64,000 nucleotides of DNA from a virus. The notes beneath the pieces were generated by a model, which worked only from the letters and a program-made list of their open reading frames with translations, did not search any database and had not been told where the DNA came from. The stretch spans positions 1-64,000 of the IMG/VR virus record IMGVR_UViG_3300043434_000700; one strand, given 5' to 3'. The position numbers were made by a program, and so were the translations under genes. Of this stretch, positions 47,382-64,000 are shown piece after piece; the stretch's first letter is position 1; every line of letters starts with the position of its first letter.

Positions 47382-50300
47382 TTAGTATGTACCACCATCG
47401 ATATCACTGTTCTGGTTCAAGATACCACCAGCAGTCAATGTAACTGTTGGAGTTAAACGAACCATAATGAAGTCGTTAGCTTCCGGAGCAGTATCAAACA
47501 CGATACTTGTTACACCGTCGACTGTGTCTAATGTGTAAGAGTATGTTGGGGCTTGTACCAAACCGTTAATAAACACTTGTGTGTTTTGGATAGAACTAAT
47601 TTCAGCTTCGGTACTGAAACTTACTGTTGTACCGTCACCTGTGTAGTTCTTTGTTACTACTGTTGTTGTAACGTTCTGTGGAACAAACTTCTGTAGAGTA
47701 GAACTCCAAACTAGTGTGTAACCATCAGACATTGCGGCAGAGTCAACGTCTGCAAGATCAAATACGCTTGCGTTAGCAATACGTGCATCAACCTTAGTTG
47801 CTGTGTAGTACTCGTTTACTGAACCTTCAGCAATTGCATCTGTTGTCGGAGTAACAAATGTAAACACACCGGTACCAGCGTTGTAGCTTAAGATATCAAT
47901 GTTGTCGCTTGCTAACGATACTGCACCACGTGCTTGAGCATTAGTGAAGTACTTGTTGGTTGCAGTAGAATCAGAAATATTGTCAGTTGTTAAAGTAACA
48001 ACGCCATCTAAGCCGTTAACACTTTGAACAGCAGCCAATGTGCTGATAACACCAGTTGAACTGTTGTACTGGATGTTTGCACCACCACTGATAGAAGCCT
48101 TAGCACGGCCTTCAGTGAAGAACAAGTTGATAGCACCGCTTAGTTCAGCAATGTTATCTGTGTTCAAGTTGTCGATACGACCACCTAATGCAACTTCGGC
48201 GGCAGTAGCACGAGTTACTTCAGTGTCAACGTTGGCTTGAACAGCAATGTCACCTGCAACACGAGCGGCTGCTTCGATAACGTCAGCGGCAGCATTAGCT
48301 TCTTCGGCGGCAGTTGCACGAGCTGTTTCTGCGGCAATAGCGGCAGCGTTGGCAGCATCGCCAGCGGCACGTGTTGTTGCTTCGGCAGTTACGCTGGCAG
48401 CAATAACGCCTTCGGCGGCAGTTGCGCGAGCAACTTCAGCAGTTACGCTAGCAGTGATTGTTGTATCAGCAGATTCGCGAGCACTAATTTCATTGCTGAT
48501 ATTAGTTGCATTTGCGGCCTCGGCAGCAGTAGCACGAGCAACTTCAGCGGCTAACGCTGTTGCGGCTGCATTATCGGCAGCTAGACGTGTAGCGGCTTCG
48601 TTAGCCAATGCAGTTGCACTTGCACTTGCCAAGTCGCTAATAGCTTGAGTCAAGCTAGAGTCAGCGGCATTGTAAGCATCAATGATTTCTGTTAAAGAGT
48701 CCAAAGCGGCTGGATCAATGTTGCTTAGAACATTGTCAATGCGTGTGTTTAATGCTGTATCAGCAGATTCACGAGCACTTGTTTCTGCACTTAAGGCAGC
48801 AATACGTGCTGTTTCTTCAGCAATGATAGCGGCAGCGTTTGCTTGCTCGGCAGCAGTAGCGCGAGTTACTTCGGCGGCCAATGCAGTTGCGGCAGCAACG
48901 TCGGCGGCAGAGCGTGTAGCGGCTTCAGCAGTAATAGCGGCAGCATTTGCTGTTTCGGCAGCAGTAGCGCGAGTTACTTCGGCAGCTAAGTCAGCTGTCA
49001 ATGTAGCTTCGGCAGCAGTAGCACGAGTTACTTCAGCTGTAATAGCTGTAGCGTTTGCTGTTTCGGCAGCAGTAGCACGAGTTACTTCAGCAGCCAAGTC
49101 AGCTGTCAATGTAGCTTCTGCGGCGCGAGCTGTTGTAGCTTCAGCTGTGATAGCTGTGGCGTTGGCAGAGTCACCAGCAATACGTGCTGTTTCTTCGGCA
49201 GTAATAGCGGCGTCTAAGGCAGCTTCGGCAGCAGTAGCACGAGTTACTTCGGCAGTAATAGCATTTGCATTTGTTGCATCACCAGCAATACGTGCTGTTT
49301 CTTCAGCATCAATATTTGCTTGCAATGTAGCTTCTGCGGCAGTGTGGTGTGCATGCTCTTCAGCAATGTCAGCAGCCAATGCGGCTTCGGCAGCAGTTGC
49401 ACGAGTTACTTCGGCAGTAATGTCAGCATCTAAGGCAGCTTCGGCAGCAGTAGCACGAGTTACTTCGGCAGCTAAGTTAGCGGCAGCAGTATTTGCCAAT
49501 GTAGTAATAGCACCATTGATGTCGTTGTCAGCACCTTGGAATGCGGCAACAATTTCTGTCAAGCTATCTAATGCGGCTGCATCAGTGTTGCTTAAAATGT
49601 CATCAATACGAGCGTTTATTAAAACGTCGGCAGCAATATAAGCATCAGCGTTAGCATCAATGTTTGCTTGCAATACAGCTTCGGCAGCTTCGGCACGAGC
49701 AACTTCGGCAGCTAAGTCGTTTGTCAATGTTGTGTCAGCGGCAGCACGGGCTACAGCTTCAGCACCAACGGCAGCGGTACGAGCACTTGCTTCGGCAGCA
49801 TCGCCTGCAATGCGGTCAGCAATTTCGGCAGCAATGGCAGTTGCGTTTGTTGTTTCAGCCGCAGTAGCACGAGCTGTTTCAGCAGTGATAGCAGTTGCGT
49901 TTGCTGTTTCGGCAGCAGTTGCACGAACAACTTCAGCGGCCAAGTCAGCAGTTAATACGCTTTCGGCAGCCGTAGCACGAGTTACTTCGTTAGAAATAGC
50001 AGTTGCATTTGCTTGTTCAGCGGCAGTTGCGCGAGCAACTTCGTTGGATACAGAAGTTGTTAATACAGCTTCAGCGGCAATTGCGCGAGTTTCTTCAGCA
50101 GAGATAGCGGCAGCATTAGCGATATCACCGGCTTCGCGTAAACCGGCTTCAGTTGTTACGCTGGCGGCAATAACGCCGTCGGCTGCAATACGTGCTGTTT
50201 CTTCGGCAGCAATATCAGTAGCCAATACACCTTCGGCAGCAGTAGCACGAGTTACTTCTGCAGATACGGCTGTTGTTAATGTAGCTTCTGCGGCAGTTGC

Positions 50301-52097
50301 ACGAGTGGCTTCAGCTGTAATAGCGGCTGCATTTGTTGCGTCACCGGCAATACGTGCAGATTCTTCAGTTGCAACGGCTGTTGCAAATGCATCGTCGGCA
50401 GCTTCGCGAGCGGCTGTTTCGGCAGCAAGTGCGGCTGCGGCAGTACTTGCTAAATTGTTGATGGCAGTTTGTAAATTGCTGTCGGCAGCATCGTAAGCGG
50501 CAATGATTTCTGTTAAGGAATCAAGTGCGGCTGGATCAATGTTGCTTAATACGTTGTCGATACGAATACCTAATGCAACGTCACCTGCAATACGTGCTGT
50601 TTCTTCAGCAGTAACGGCTGCGGCGCGAGCGGCTTCTTCGGCAGCAATAGCGGCTGTCAATGTAGCTTCTGCGGCGCGAGCTGTTGAAGCTTCGGCTGCT
50701 AAGTCAGCTGTCAATGTAGCTTCTGCGGCACGAGCTGTTGTAGCTTCAGCTGTAATAGCGGCTGCATTTGTTGCATCACCGGCTGTACGAGCTGTTGTTT
50801 CGGCAGCAATAGCATTTGCATTTACAGTATCACCAGCAATACGTGCTGTTGTTTCGGCGGACAAGTCAGCGGCAATCGCAGATTCGGCAGCTTCAGCACG
50901 AGCAACTTCGGCAGCTAAATCGGTTGTCAATACGCCTTCTGCGGCTGTTGCACGAGTTACTTCAGCAGCCAAGTCAGCAGTCAATACGCCTTCGGCAGCA
51001 GTTGCACGAGTTACTTCAGCGGCTAAGTTAGTTGTTAAAGTAGATTCGGCAGCAGTAGCACGAACAACTTCGGCGGCCAAGTCGGCAGTCAATACGCCTT
51101 CGGCAGCAGTGGCACGAGTGGCTTCAGCTGTAATAGCTGTAGTCAATACAGTTTCAGCATTACCTGCACGAATTACTTCTGCATCAACTGCGGCTTGAAC
51201 GGCAGCAACTGCGGCAGCGTTGGCAGTAACAGCACGACCAGCTGTGAAGTATAGGTTTTCACCTTCGGCAATGTGAGATGTTGTTAGAACAACTACACCA
51301 GTTTGACCGTTAACGCTTTCAACTGCGGCAACAGAACTGATAATACCAGTTGCTGAATCGTAGCTGATGTTGTTACCACCGCTAATAGCGGCACGGGCAC
51401 GACTTGTTAAAAAGTACTGGTTAGTGCTACCTTCGACAATCTTATCAGTTGTTGGAGTAACAAATGTAAACTCACCAGTTTGTGTACCATAGCTTAAAAT
51501 TTGGTTGTCATCGCTGTTTAAACTGATGGCAGCACGAGCTAAAGCATCTGTAAAGTACTTGTTTGTTTGACCTTCTAAGATACCATCACTTGTTGGGTGG
51601 TTGTATGTGAATTGACCGTTTAAGTAGCTTAATACTGTGGTATTGTTGCTTGACAAACCGATATCGCGCCATACGTTTGCAGTATGGTAATATTCATTTA
51701 ACGAACCTTCTGGTACATCATCAGTGCTTGAAATTGTAATAGCGTTGATTTCTTGATCAACGTATTGCTTTGTTGCGGCGTGTAAGTTGCTTGATGGATC
51801 AGCAGACAATGTCAAGAAACCTGTCATTGTATCGCCGTCTTTGGCAACTTTACCTGCTAGTGCAGTTGTTAGTGTGGCAGCAAAGTTGGCATCATCGCCA
51901 ATGGCTGCTGACAACTCAGCCAACGTATCTAATACGGCTGGTGCAGAGTTGATTAAGTCGCTAACTGCTGAGCTTACGAAGCCAGTAGACGCGATTTGTG
52001 TTGTTGCAGTACCTTTGGCGGCTGTAACCGCTGTAGGTGTACCACGAAGATCAACCGAGTTAATAATCGAACTCGATCTTGCTTTGATAATAGGCAT
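47382..52097 (-). CDS. Long tail fibre with about 1,000 residues of coiled 15-residue repeats, 1571 aa
   Basis: The N-terminus (MPIIKARSSSIINSVDLRG...DTMTGFLTLSADP...ATKQYVDQEI) is a typical phage fibre head. About 310-1370 is a repetitive stretch of AEVTRATAAE-x-x-LTADL units, predicted as a long trimeric coiled coil. It is interrupted three times by a 40-residue RIDNVLSNIDPAALDSLTEII block. The C-terminus (GDGTTVSFSTEAEISSIQNTQ...VFINGLVQAPTYSY) is a beta module shared with the next gene. It probably is the distal long tail fibre subunit. Confidence 0.88.
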   Translation of the reverse strand: MPIIKARSSSIINSVDLRGTPTAVTAAKGTATTQIASTGFVSSAVSDLINSAPAVLDTLAELSAAIGDDANFAATLTTALAGKVAKDGDTMTGFLTLSADPSSNLHAATKQYVDQEINAITISSTDDVPEGSLNEYYHTANVWRDIGLSSNNTTVLSYLNGQFTYNHPTSDGILEGQTNKYFTDALARAAISLNSDDNQILSYGTQTGEFTFVTPTTDKIVEGSTNQYFLTSRARAAISGGNNISYDSATGIISSVAAVESVNGQTGVVVLTTSHIAEGENLYFTAGRAVTANAAAVAAVQAAVDAEVIRAGNAETVLTTAITAEATRATAAEGVLTADLAAEVVRATAAESTLTTNLAAEVTRATAAEGVLTADLAAEVTRATAAEGVLTTDLAAEVARAEAAESAIAADLSAETTARIAGDTVNANAIAAETTARTAGDATNAAAITAEATTARAAEATLTADLAAEASTARAAEATLTAAIAAEEAARAAAVTAEETARIAGDVALGIRIDNVLSNIDPAALDSLTEIIAAYDAADSNLQTAINNLASTAAAALAAETAAREAADDAFATAVATEESARIAGDATNAAAITAEATRATAAEATLTTAVSAEVTRATAAEGVLATDIAAEETARIAADGVIAASVTTEAGLREAGDIANAAAISAEETRAIAAEAVLTTSVSNEVARATAAEQANATAISNEVTRATAAESVLTADLAAEVVRATAAETANATAITAETARATAAETTNATAIAAEIADRIAGDAAEASARTAAVGAEAVARAAADTTLTNDLAAEVARAEAAEAVLQANIDANADAYIAADVLINARIDDILSNTDAAALDSLTEIVAAFQGADNDINGAITTLANTAAANLAAEVTRATAAEAALDADITAEVTRATAAEAALAADIAEEHAHHTAAEATLQANIDAEETARIAGDATNANAITAEVTRATAAEAALDAAITAEETARIAGDSANATAITAEATTARAAEATLTADLAAEVTRATAAETANATAITAEVTRATAAEATLTADLAAEVTRATAAETANAAAITAEAATRSAADVAAATALAAEVTRATAAEQANAAAIIAEETARIAALSAETSARESADTALNTRIDNVLSNIDPAALDSLTEIIDAYNAADSSLTQAISDLASASATALANEAATRLAADNAAATALAAEVARATAAEAANATNISNEISARESADTTITASVTAEVARATAAEGVIAASVTAEATTRAAGDAANAAAIAAETARATAAEEANAAADVIEAAARVAGDIAVQANVDTEVTRATAAEVALGGRIDNLNTDNIAELSGAINLFFTEGRAKASISGGANIQYNSSTGVISTLAAVQSVNGLDGVVTLTTDNISDSTATNKYFTNAQARGAVSLASDNIDILSYNAGTGVFTFVTPTTDAIAEGSVNEYYTATKVDARIANASVFDLADVDSAAMSDGYTLVWSSTLQKFVPQNVTTTVVTKNYTGDGTTVSFSTEAEISSIQNTQVFINGLVQAPTYSYTLDTVDGVTSIVFDTAPEANDFIMVRLTPTVTLTAGGILNQNSDIDGGTY
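48200..51200 (-). repeat. Degenerate 45-bp tandem repeats within the fibre gene
   Basis: Repeated GCAGTAGCACGAGTTACTTC-like units (plus strand), coding the 15-residue repeat. The DSLTEI block recurs at about 48675-48735, 49545-49620, 50494-50560 and again at 53105-53160 in the neighbouring gene. Copy number is likely to vary by recombination. Confidence 0.85.
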
Positions 52098-59986: not shown

Positions 59987-62929
59987 TTAAGACAATCTAA
60001 CCGGACTTTCATATCCGTTTTTTCGTGTATTGCCTCGAATTGCTTGTAAATCGTTTTCAATGTTAGACAGATATGACATCAACTGTCCGATTACTTCTGG
60101 TGTTATTGCGGCGTTGCCAGATAACACATTTGACAATGCATTACCTTGTTGTGGTGCGCCAGCAATGCCATCCGTTGATATTTGTGGGATAGACAATCCG
60201 TCTAAACTTGGCATGTCAATGTTGCTTATTTCAACTAACGCATTTTTAAAATTGTCTAATGCATCAAGGTCTAATGATTTTAAGTTCTCATTGATCAATC
60301 CAATACTTGATCCAAACTTAAACATGCCTTCGCCAATCATGCTGATCTTATCAGCAACTGGTACCAACTCTAAAATACGTTCCATTGGGCTTTTTGCGCC
60401 AAATAGACTCATTAATCCAGTTACTAAACTGGTTGCTGTTGCCGCTACCATACCAGCCGCAAAAACAACTGCACCAGCGCCAACTGCCGCAAGGCCTGCA
60501 CCTACTGCAATTAAGTTTACACCATCAATTTTACCAACTTTTTCTATTGCATTAGCAAACACATCTGCGGCTTGGGCAGCAACCCAAGCACCTGCACCAA
60601 ACACACCAAGTGCTAGACCTAATGCGCCGATTGCTAATGAACCGGCTGCAATGACCGGTAAGAAGGCTCCCATTACTCCAGCGGCTACTGCAAATACACC
60701 TAGTGCAACTGCTCCTTTGGCAATGCCTTCCCAATTTAAATCGTTGAATGTTTGGAAGCCTTTACCTGCTACCCACATAGCGGCCCCAAGTGCGGCAATT
60801 CCTAATGCTCCTTTTAATATACTAGAAGTCATATTACCAATCATTTGTGCCGACACTGCCAGTGCGCCTAGCGCGAGACCACCTTTAACTAAACTATCCC
60901 AGTTAACTTCATTAAATGTTTTGAATCCTACAGCCGAAACTAATACAGCGGCACCTAAAATTGCAATGGCAGCGGCACCTTTAACAATACCTGTTGTTGC
61001 TTCTCCGACTAGTCTAGCCATACCAATTAGGCCGCCAAGTGCAATAGTGCCTTTTGCTAAACTGTCCCACTTGACTTCATTGAATGTTTTTAATCCCACG
61101 GCAGTTAATGCCAATGCACTGCCTAGTAATGCAAGAGTAGCGGCACCTTTGACAGTTTTGCTTTCGCCCAACTTTCCTAACATATCGCCAAAGCCTTCCA
61201 TACCCTTGCCTGCGGCTCCGCTTAACTTGTCCATGATTCCACTGCCTGCGCCACCTGCTGAGGCAGTTGGGCCATTTTTCCAACCTGCAAATGATCCTGG
61301 TGCCGGTCCGGCAGTACCCATCTTCTTGCCAAACATGCCACCAAACATGTCGCCTAACTTACTACCTAAGCCGCCTTTAAATAACCCACCCCCTGCGCCA
61401 AATAATGCAATTGCACCTAAACTAGTTGCCAATGTTGCAATAGTAGCTGTGATACCTAATAACACATTTCGCAAACTTTCAATGGCTGCTTGCAAGCTAT
61501 TCATAGCCATTATATTTTTTGCTTCAGATGTCAAGGGTTCTGCTTTTCCAGCGTCTTTGTCACCTGTTTTTATTTTAGTAGCTGTATCAAGTAATTTTGC
61601 AAGAGGTCCAGCAAGATCAGCATTATTAACTGCTAATCTATTGCCTTCCATGCCCAATGCTTCCATAGCAGGCAACAATGCTTTTATATTTTTATTAAAC
61701 GCATCGGTATCATTGCCACCATTGGTCCCACGTATTGCCTGTTCAAGAAGTTCTAGCGCTCTAAATTGTGATTGATTTCCGCCAGCTTCTGCCAATGCGC
61801 CCCTTGCCGCGCCAGCATCGCCTTCGGAAAGAGCTTTGGCAATTCTAGCACCTAAATCAGCATCAGAAGTGACACCAAATGCTTCCACTGCCGGAGCTAT
61901 TTTTACGGCTCCAGTATTACCCGTGGCAGCACTAAATCTACCTGCGGTAGTTTCTCTAAACTTCTGCATCGCGGCTTGAAGTTCTCTTGTACTAGTACCA
62001 AATGTGTTGCTTAATTTGCGAGTACTAATTACCGTGTCTTCCATTTGCTTGGCAAATCTTTGCTGTGCATCTTGTGCGTCTTTGGCTCCGTAAGCCGCAT
62101 CTCGGGCAATTGCCCCCATGAGTTTCGCACGTTCTTCCTCTGACATGCCCATTGCCGCGGCTGCGTTGGCAGCACGGTCAACGCTTTTGACTAGATCTTT
62201 GCCCAATGCATTACGCATGGTAGAGTTTAGATAGGAACTACCATACTTTAGACCACGGCTTAAATTGCTCAGGTTCTCTGCGGCTTCTTGACTATTAGCG
62301 CCAAATGCTCTAAATCCGCCTTGGCTTTCTTCAATTACTTTAATGAAGGCAGCGCCTAGGCCACTCATCAGTTTCATCTGCGTAATTGAACCAACACTAA
62401 ACTTGCTTAGATCAGCAAATGCTCCCATGTCAGCGGCGTTCTTTGCAAATTCTTGAAGCTGACCAATTGCGAAACCAGCCCCCCAGGCCATGCCTCCGAC
62501 AATTTTACCAAAAGTAGATCCTGTACCTAGTAAGCTACCACTGAAACTTCTAAGCATGGTAGTCATATTTGCATCGGCACTAATCATTGATGCGCCTAAA
62601 TCCTTAAACGCATCAGTTGTTTGTTCTTGTATACGTTTGGCTTTTAGTTGCTCTTTGGTTAAATCTTGTTGGGCATCAACTGCTTTTTCAGACGCTTTGA
62701 TTTCTTCTTCTGTTTGCTTGTTTAGGGCCTGAATTGTCTTGGTTGCTTTTTTTATTTCTTCGCGATTGGCTTTTTCAGTTGCATCAGCGGCTTTGGCACG
62801 TGGCACTGGACCATTTTTTGGAGTACCAGACGATGACGTTTGGTTACTGCCACGGCCAACAGAACTTGACACGCTGTCTAGCTTGTCTGTTAATCTGTTT
62901 ATTGCCTTTATGAGTTCTTTATCATCCAT
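59987..62929 (-). CDS. Tail tape measure protein (gp29 counterpart), 980 aa
   Basis: A charged coiled-coil N-terminus (about 1-110) is followed by a long, alanine-rich, hydrophobic body. Residues about 560-790 hold at least three repeats of roughly 60 residues with KTFNEVKWDSLAKG (also KTFNEVNWDSLVKG, QTFNDLNWEGIAKG) and membrane-like helices. This is the usual layout of tape measure proteins that set tail length and enter the host membrane. T4 gp29 is 590 aa. It is divergent from the gp26-like gene. Confidence 0.8.
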   Translation of the reverse strand: MDDKELIKAINRLTDKLDSVSSSVGRGSNQTSSSGTPKNGPVPRAKAADATEKANREEIKKATKTIQALNKQTEEEIKASEKAVDAQQDLTKEQLKAKRIQEQTTDAFKDLGASMISADANMTTMLRSFSGSLLGTGSTFGKIVGGMAWGAGFAIGQLQEFAKNAADMGAFADLSKFSVGSITQMKLMSGLGAAFIKVIEESQGGFRAFGANSQEAAENLSNLSRGLKYGSSYLNSTMRNALGKDLVKSVDRAANAAAAMGMSEEERAKLMGAIARDAAYGAKDAQDAQQRFAKQMEDTVISTRKLSNTFGTSTRELQAAMQKFRETTAGRFSAATGNTGAVKIAPAVEAFGVTSDADLGARIAKALSEGDAGAARGALAEAGGNQSQFRALELLEQAIRGTNGGNDTDAFNKNIKALLPAMEALGMEGNRLAVNNADLAGPLAKLLDTATKIKTGDKDAGKAEPLTSEAKNIMAMNSLQAAIESLRNVLLGITATIATLATSLGAIALFGAGGGLFKGGLGSKLGDMFGGMFGKKMGTAGPAPGSFAGWKNGPTASAGGAGSGIMDKLSGAAGKGMEGFGDMLGKLGESKTVKGAATLALLGSALALTAVGLKTFNEVKWDSLAKGTIALGGLIGMARLVGEATTGIVKGAAAIAILGAAVLVSAVGFKTFNEVNWDSLVKGGLALGALAVSAQMIGNMTSSILKGALGIAALGAAMWVAGKGFQTFNDLNWEGIAKGAVALGVFAVAAGVMGAFLPVIAAGSLAIGALGLALGVFGAGAWVAAQAADVFANAIEKVGKIDGVNLIAVGAGLAAVGAGAVVFAAGMVAATATSLVTGLMSLFGAKSPMERILELVPVADKISMIGEGMFKFGSSIGLINENLKSLDLDALDNFKNALVEISNIDMPSLDGLSIPQISTDGIAGAPQQGNALSNVLSGNAAITPEVIGQLMSYLSNIENDLQAIRGNTRKNGYESPVRLS

Positions 62930-63023: not shown

Positions 63024-63917
63024 ATGGATAACTCAAACCCACTAAAACAGCCAATTAAGCAGCCTGTTGCCAACCCATTGGCACAATACTATCGTAAGCC
63101 TGGCACTTATATTGAACTACCAAGTGGTGGACGTTTTTATAACACAACACCAAAGCTAAGTGACACTGGCGAATTGGCTGTATACCCAATGACTGCCAAA
63201 GATGAACTTGCGCTAAAGAATCCAGACGCGTTGTTAAACGGCGAAGCACTAAAACAAGTTATTGCTTCAGTATGCCCTGACATTGCCAATGTATCAGAAA
63301 TTCCAGCGCCTGATATTGATGCTATCTTAGTTGCCATGCGTATGACCAGCTATGGCGATGATATGGAGCTTGACGTAACCCATGGTTGTGAAGAAAGCGG
63401 TGGCAAGTCACAAAGAGTTACAGTTGGATTAGGCAGTGTGTTATCAACATCACGTGCTATTCCTGAAACATTAGGTACAGTAACATTAGCAAATGGCGTA
63501 GTTGTACAGCTAAAGCCATATACATTAGAAGCACAAAGTCGCTTACTTCGTGTGCAATTTAACACAATGCGCCAGTTACAAGGTGCAGAAGCCAACGAAA
63601 ACTCTACCATTGAACAAAAAGCAGATATTGCCAATCGCGGGTATGATCAGTTGGTTGCACTAAGTCAAGATATCCTTGCCGCTAGTATCACAGTTGTTCG
63701 ATTACCAGACGGTGTTGAAGTAACAAATTTCAATCACATTTACGAATGGGTTAAGAACTTAGATCGTGCAAGTAACGAACGTCTTGACGAGGAAATTAAA
63801 GCATTTGGCAAGTATGGTATCACTCGCACATTAGAAGTAACTTGCGATCATTGCAAAAACAAATTTACTACTGATATGCTATTTGATCCCACAAGTTTTT
63901 TCAGCGTCGGCTCTTGA
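63024..63917 (+). CDS. 26: Baseplate hub protein gp26-like; candidate tail assembly chaperone
   Basis: 297 aa. The N-terminal pattern YIELPSGGRFYNTTPKLSDTGELAVYPMTAKDELALKNPDALLNGEAL fits the T4 baseplate hub gp26 family. The C-terminus has a zinc-type CDHCKNKF. The final codons AGT TTT TTC followed by a hairpin form a candidate -1 frameshift site, which would extend it into the next frame. AAGGA before the ATG. Confidence 0.8.
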   Translation: MDNSNPLKQPIKQPVANPLAQYYRKPGTYIELPSGGRFYNTTPKLSDTGELAVYPMTAKDELALKNPDALLNGEALKQVIASVCPDIANVSEIPAPDIDAILVAMRMTSYGDDMELDVTHGCEESGGKSQRVTVGLGSVLSTSRAIPETLGTVTLANGVVVQLKPYTLEAQSRLLRVQFNTMRQLQGAEANENSTIEQKADIANRGYDQLVALSQDILAASITVVRLPDGVEVTNFNHIYEWVKNLDRASNERLDEEIKAFGKYGITRTLEVTCDHCKNKFTTDMLFDPTSFFSVGS

Positions 63918-63982
63918 GTCTAGGACTTGATCGAAACAAAATTAGACGTTTCATCGAAGGCATTGAAAACGAGTCAAGAGCC
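63896..63982 (+). promoter_or_regulatory. Programmed -1 frameshift signal: slippery heptamer plus hairpin
   Basis: T TTT TTC (63896-63902) is in the gp26 frame. Six bases later GGCTCTTGAGTC (63909-63920) can pair with GAGTCAAGAGCC (63971-63982) in 11 of 12 positions, nine of them consecutive. The loop is 50 nt. The gp26 stop TGA at 63915-63917 lies within the stem. Confidence 0.72.
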
Positions 63983-64000
63983 GTAATCAAAGAAGTATCT
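63902..64000 (+). CDS. gp51-like reading frame, partial (-1 frame product or separate gene)
   Basis: The -1 frame is open from the slippery site to the window edge: QRRLLSLGLDRNKIRRFIEG and on to SRAVIKEVS. Its only independent start candidate is TTG at 63914 without a Shine-Dalgarno. In T4, gene 51 directly follows gene 26, so this is probably gp51, made as a gp26-gp51 fusion. No sequence proof of gp51 identity is possible from 33 codons. Confidence 0.6.

Follow-up and report, generated by a model that had tools for sequence, protein, structure and literature searches.

A conserved poly-T heptamer and a covarying stem support a programmed -1 frameshift in the gp26-like gene of a T4-related phage

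Frameshifting is reportedly conserved in several groups of T4-like phages, as the abstract of the 2022 study by Vladimirov and colleagues is said to state. The tail-assembly chaperone (TAC) genes of these phages were identified by Vladimirov, Gautam and Davidson (Virology 2022), according to the portions of PMC10885494 and PMC12846349 that cite that work, and one such portion of PMC12846349 refers, on the same authority, to known poly-T frameshift signals in the TAC-N genes of T4-like phages. It has also been noted that the gp51 of cyanophages has only about 20% of the length of other gp51 proteins and resembles their C-terminal region (Sullivan et al. 2010, PMC3037559). Here we analyse a locus at the end of a 64,000-nt stretch of viral DNA (the window), which comprises positions 1-64000 of a 67,641-nt record; the remaining 3.6 kb was added to follow the -1 frame. 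A sequence-only reading of the window had proposed a frameshift between gp26 and gp51 and knew of no described case in T4-like phages; as far as the two citing papers relate, one was published in 2022. A poly-T -1 frameshift in T4-like TAC genes is, then, already in print, and this locus is a clear new example and no discovery. Since the general idea is published, the value of the present work lies in strong confirmation and in a map of the groups that use the frameshift.

The phage is T4-related, and its terminase shares 54% identity with the terminase of the jumbo phage PA5oct. The features of the locus are collected in the table below. The gp26-like protein matches PF12322 (T4_baseplate, E 1.1e-12) and PHROG 150 (baseplate hub, E 1.5e-19), and the divergent neighbour, which the earlier reading had taken for the tape measure gene, matches a tape measure family; its product is the expected client of the chaperones. 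Neither the predicted structure of the gp26-like protein (pLDDT 85) nor that of the extension (pLDDT 87.6, helical) has a match in the PDB, and no solved relative was found by profile search. In a viral library, the confident matches of the extension structure are uncharacterised phage proteins only. A Pfam search of the window's extension returned no family at E 1, and a PHROG search just a weak match (E 0.15).

Table. Features of the frameshift locus (window coordinates)
Feature	Position	Strand	Remark
gp26-like gene, 0 frame, 297 aa (putative TAC-N)	63024-63917	+	stop TGA 63915-63917
Slippery heptamer T_TTT_TTC	63896-63902	+	in frame, just 5' of the gp26-like stop
-1 frame, C-terminal extension (putative TAC-C, like the C part of T4 gp51)	63896-64000, on past the window	+	coding frame conserved in relatives
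5' stem arm CGGCTCTTGAGTC	63908-63920	+	core GGCTCTTG 63909-63916
3' stem arm GAGTCAAGAGCCG	63971-63983	+	core CAAGAGCC 63975-63982; compensatory changes at three pairs
Divergent tape measure gene	59987-62929	-	PHROG 4372 tail length tape measure protein, E 8.9e-9

Two further frames were remarked in this record. Past the window, at contig 64764-65189 (L002:2765-3190, minus strand), a 141-aa frame, VYLITNLTNNRKYVGKK, looks by eye like a GIY-YIG endonuclease, with the chaperone gene on one side of it and a gp46-like nuclease gene on the other. Within the window, a 1571-aa frame (47382-52097, minus strand) carries many AEVTRATAAE-like repeats and is, by eye, possibly a fibrous tail or whisker protein.

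The heptamer noted at the end of the gp26-like gene is indeed there, and the letters of the window read TTTTTTC in the 0 frame as T_TTT_TTC, a sequence of the X_XXY_YYZ form. It is the only one of this form in the last 15 codons of the long plus-strand open frames of the window, where two minus-strand counterparts at gene ends lead into -1 frames of just 4 and 6 codons. Runs of six T (T6) as such are not rare, 31 of them lying on the plus strand of the window, as might suit a T run that arose by chance where an AT-rich gene ends beside an unrelated open frame. To collect relatives, IMG/VR was searched with the window protein and the gp26 of RaK2, T4, S-CAM8 and Cygsa01, and isolated phages were added; the gp26 of RaK2 or of T4 used as single queries gave few relatives. 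TTTTTT plus one further base (Z) is present in 195 of the 203 gp26-like loci, Z being C in 178, T in 12, G in 3 and A in 2, and the tally takes in cyanophages, Stenotrophomonas phages DLP6 and Moby, Rhizobium phage RL38J1 and the Straboviridae phages Cronobacter S13 and Aeromonas AP1. When the gp26-like proteins were clustered at 70% identity into 51 clusters (leaving out L204, a partial match), T6 was present in 46, that is, in 46/46 outside the T4 and Ackermannviridae-like groups. T6 is missing from five clusters, namely the T4 group (TTCTTTG) and four of Ackermannviridae-like, Vibrio or Pseudomonas phages (N_NTT_TTC).

The surroundings of the run change while the run itself does not. The codon 5' of T6 is AGT, TCT, ACT, GAT, CAT, CGT, TAT, GCT or AAT, encoding eight amino acids with T as third base every time, and variation of Z turns the second phenylalanine of the 0 frame into leucine in a few lineages that nevertheless keep T6. 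From the codon use of the same genes, T6 is expected, given two phenylalanines, at a rate of about 0.21 per lineage. It was seen in 46/46 clusters, for which no joint probability is given because the lineages are not fully independent; the figure is still far from about 21%. On these counts, the heptamer is conserved in relatives beyond the protein constraint, with a signal far beyond chance. A chance T run would have to survive in 46 of 46 divergent clusters while neighbouring codons change, and is further contradicted by the compensated stem and the -1 coding constraint described below; it was rejected on cluster conservation together with stem covariation, and we regard it as vanishingly improbable.

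In Kevin, Cygsa01, Vibrio D532 and CBA120 (L105, L106, L208, L209), N_NTT_TTC lies just before the gp26 stop in place of T6 and is followed by a -1 frame. The GGTTTTC of Kevin is the site of T7 gene 10.

Downstream of the heptamer, the earlier reading had counted a stem of 12 positions, 11 of them paired, starting 6 nt away, and the same count is obtained from that start. As delimited here, the stem spans 13 positions with one mismatch (12 paired) around a 50-nt loop, and its spacing of about 6 nt falls within the 5-9 nt expected of a stimulatory structure. RNAfold returns the same stem (MFE -25.5 kcal/mol, z -2.58), and when the -1 frame was shuffled 200 times with synonymous codons, no shuffle yielded one as good. 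Its eight-pair core, also predicted independently by RNAalifold, is found throughout the near clade with 98% of positions paired over 37 sequences; pairing drops to 29-62% when the partner is slid. Two-sided changes within the core convert C-G to U-A, U-A to C-G, and G-C to U-A or C-G, and doubly changed cells number 20 against a shuffled mean of 3.9 in the same 37 sequences. Longer stems, again with matched changes, are found in L069, L070, L071-L073, L078, Atu_ph07 and Phosso. Judged by these covariations, compensatory changes maintain the stem as far as the last two, which are jumbo phages. Moreover, among 44 distinct sequences synonymous variation is zero at the 5' arm codons CTC TTG; in the 3' arm, it is zero at codons 26 (S/A) and 28 (A) and low at codon 27 (R). 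Most neighbouring codons show values of about 0.3-0.75, and a few others, GAA at codon 23 for example, show no synonymous variation either.

The stem was not found as such in RaK2-like phages or in most marine cyanophages, and it is therefore a feature of one broad lineage. In a cyanophage-like group, L181 and L196 show a possible stem of their own (CCCTCTCTCAC/GTGGGAGAGGG and CCCTTTCCCA/TGGGAGAGGG, with a loop of 86-88 nt). A covarying stem with a loop as long as 42-58 nt may be undescribed. At somewhat less than even odds, we suggest that it represents an undescribed kind of stimulator for tail-chaperone frameshifts, namely a stem of about 8-15 positions, 3-6 nt after T6, closing a 42-58 nt loop inside the extension coding sequence, with arms that covary across a range reaching from freshwater phages to Atu_ph07 and Phosso, jumbo phages of rhizobia. 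In that case, T4-related lineages would have exchanged stems of this kind, different structures, N_NTT_TTC sites and a long form encoded separately for one another, and would have retained a two-form chaperone throughout.

The -1 frame, which the earlier reading had followed to the window edge, runs beyond it and, far from closing early, stops only at contig 64133-64135. Counted from FF, the extension amounts to 79 aa; together with the 291 residues that precede FF, the predicted fused product would have 370 aa. Among 59 close relatives, positions 1, 2 and 3 of the -1 codons take 29, 19 and 53% of the changes. This is the pattern of a protein under constraint, and by that mark the -1 frame is coding. 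The residues after the predicted slip, FF[RQYF]xRL in the -1 frame, are kept within the window's clade, and the 0 frame ends after the heptamer at a variable distance, from 0 to about 11 codons, among relatives. In many lineages a stop lies 0-3 codons 5' of the heptamer in the -1 frame, which consequently opens almost exactly at the heptamer. Only in L077, which keeps the heptamer, does a stop fall 13 codons into the -1 frame, and this may be a defective copy or an error. No annotated isolate record that was examined joins the two frames; in these records the extension is either missing or entered as a gene of its own, labelled hypothetical or hub assembly catalyst.

The extension might instead be translated by stop-start coupling, in which ribosomes that have terminated at the gp26 stop would restart at the overlapping TTG (63914-63916, TTGA) and produce a separate 73-aa protein with no frameshift. 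This TTG, the sole early start in the window's -1 frame, overlaps the stop in the close clade as well, and Cygsa01 and Vibrio D532 have, besides N_NTT_TTC, a TAATG overlap at the matching place at the end of gp26. The TTG is nonetheless accounted for by its location inside the conserved stem arm, and many other lineages have no early start, several of them (L070, L081, L084, L085 and L207) having no start codon in codons 2-29. Relatives share no conserved start codon for the -1 frame and rarely have a Shine-Dalgarno-like sequence, while neither the window nor its close clade has a start codon with a Shine-Dalgarno sequence nearby, in agreement with the earlier remark that the frame lacks a good start of its own. 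Coupling also leaves unexplained the invariant T6 and the conserved FF[RQ]xRL encoded in the -1 frame before the stop. Stop-start coupling was accordingly rejected as a general mechanism on the survey of start codons and Shine-Dalgarno sequences, and even for this locus we hold it to be very unlikely.

The relation of the frame to gp51 differs in part from what had been proposed. T4 gp51, of 249 aa, is the product of a separate gene divergent from gene 26, and consists of a gp26-like N part, which matches the gp26 family at 96.9% (E 1.6e-10), and a C part. Its C end matches the pooled -1 frames at 87.9% (E 3e-6) and the cyanophage -1 frames alone at 95.5%. PHROG 634, which bears the gp51 name 'baseplate hub assembly catalyst', matches 19 of 42 -1 frames (best 1.2e-31). 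The match of gp51 to the -1 frame of the window's clade alone is weak (4.5%), and that of the clade's extension to RaK2-like extensions is strong (99.3%); its correspondence with the gp51 C part is weak taken by itself and is drawn from position, the RaK2-like match and the pooled profile. The 'gp51 frame' would correspond to the C part only, and its identification with the whole of gp51 was dropped, gp51 having 249 aa with a gp26-like N part. On this homology, the long form would be made by slippage in most groups, and in T4 it comes from the separate gene for gp51. The frameshift would also explain the short cyanophage gp51 of Sullivan et al. (2010).

Taken together, we propose, with a probability of roughly 94%, that a programmed -1 frameshift in the gp26-like gene yields TAC-N (297 aa) and TAC-NC (370 aa) as a tail-assembly chaperone pair. 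The heptamer, the stem, the -1 coding constraint and the lack of a conserved start support this proposal at the sequence level; from there we infer slippage and its efficiency, and from family and position a chaperone function. Most ribosomes would terminate at TGA and release the short TAC-N, while a minority would pause at the stem, which begins some 6 nt 3' of T_TTT_TTC, shift back by one base and go on to produce TAC-NC. By analogy with lambda gpG/gpGT, both forms would coat the tape measure protein, the product of the divergent gene, and bring in tube subunits. With a real frameshift, the products might instead be structural parts of the hub, as suggested by the baseplate hub annotation of the family in Pfam and PHROG and by the genetic studies cited in PMC3004832 that place gp26 in the hub. 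The same source lists T4 gp26 and gp51 as hub assembly chaperones and reports gp51 as absent from the particle, and Vladimirov et al. are cited for TACs in T4-like phages where PMC10885494 and PMC12846349 refer to them. We consider the structural role improbable. The interpretation given in the earlier reading is supported, and each of the three contrary findings that it had named was looked for with a negative outcome.

The present reading corrects how a core tail gene is annotated across a large number of T4-related and jumbo phages, in which the extension has been overlooked or entered as a hypothetical protein of its own. It also points out which proteins of this lineage are likely to be the tape measure chaperones, and the covarying stem provides a defined, testable RNA element.

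Compared with known systems, the locus shares with T4 genes 26 and 51 the homology of the gp51 N part to the gp26 family and of its C part to the pooled -1 extensions. Unlike it, T4 lacks the heptamer (TTCTTTG), has gene 25 following gene 26, and makes the long form from a divergent gene of its own. The likeness to lambda gpG/gpGT (Xu et al. 2004) is drawn as an analogy: the lambda heptamer is GGGAAAG whereas here T6 is combined with a strong stem, and here the chaperone gene diverges from the tape measure gene. The TAC of phage Adele (Vandenendeviridae/Andersonviridae) likewise has a -1 shift near the end of TAC-N at a T-rich signal, GTTTTT (PMC12846349), but belongs to other phage families with another motif, and there the chaperone locus is followed downstream by the tape measure gene. 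With the system of Vladimirov et al. (2022), as it appears in the portions of the papers that cite it, the locus has in common a gp26-like TAC-N with a poly-T -1 frameshift signal.
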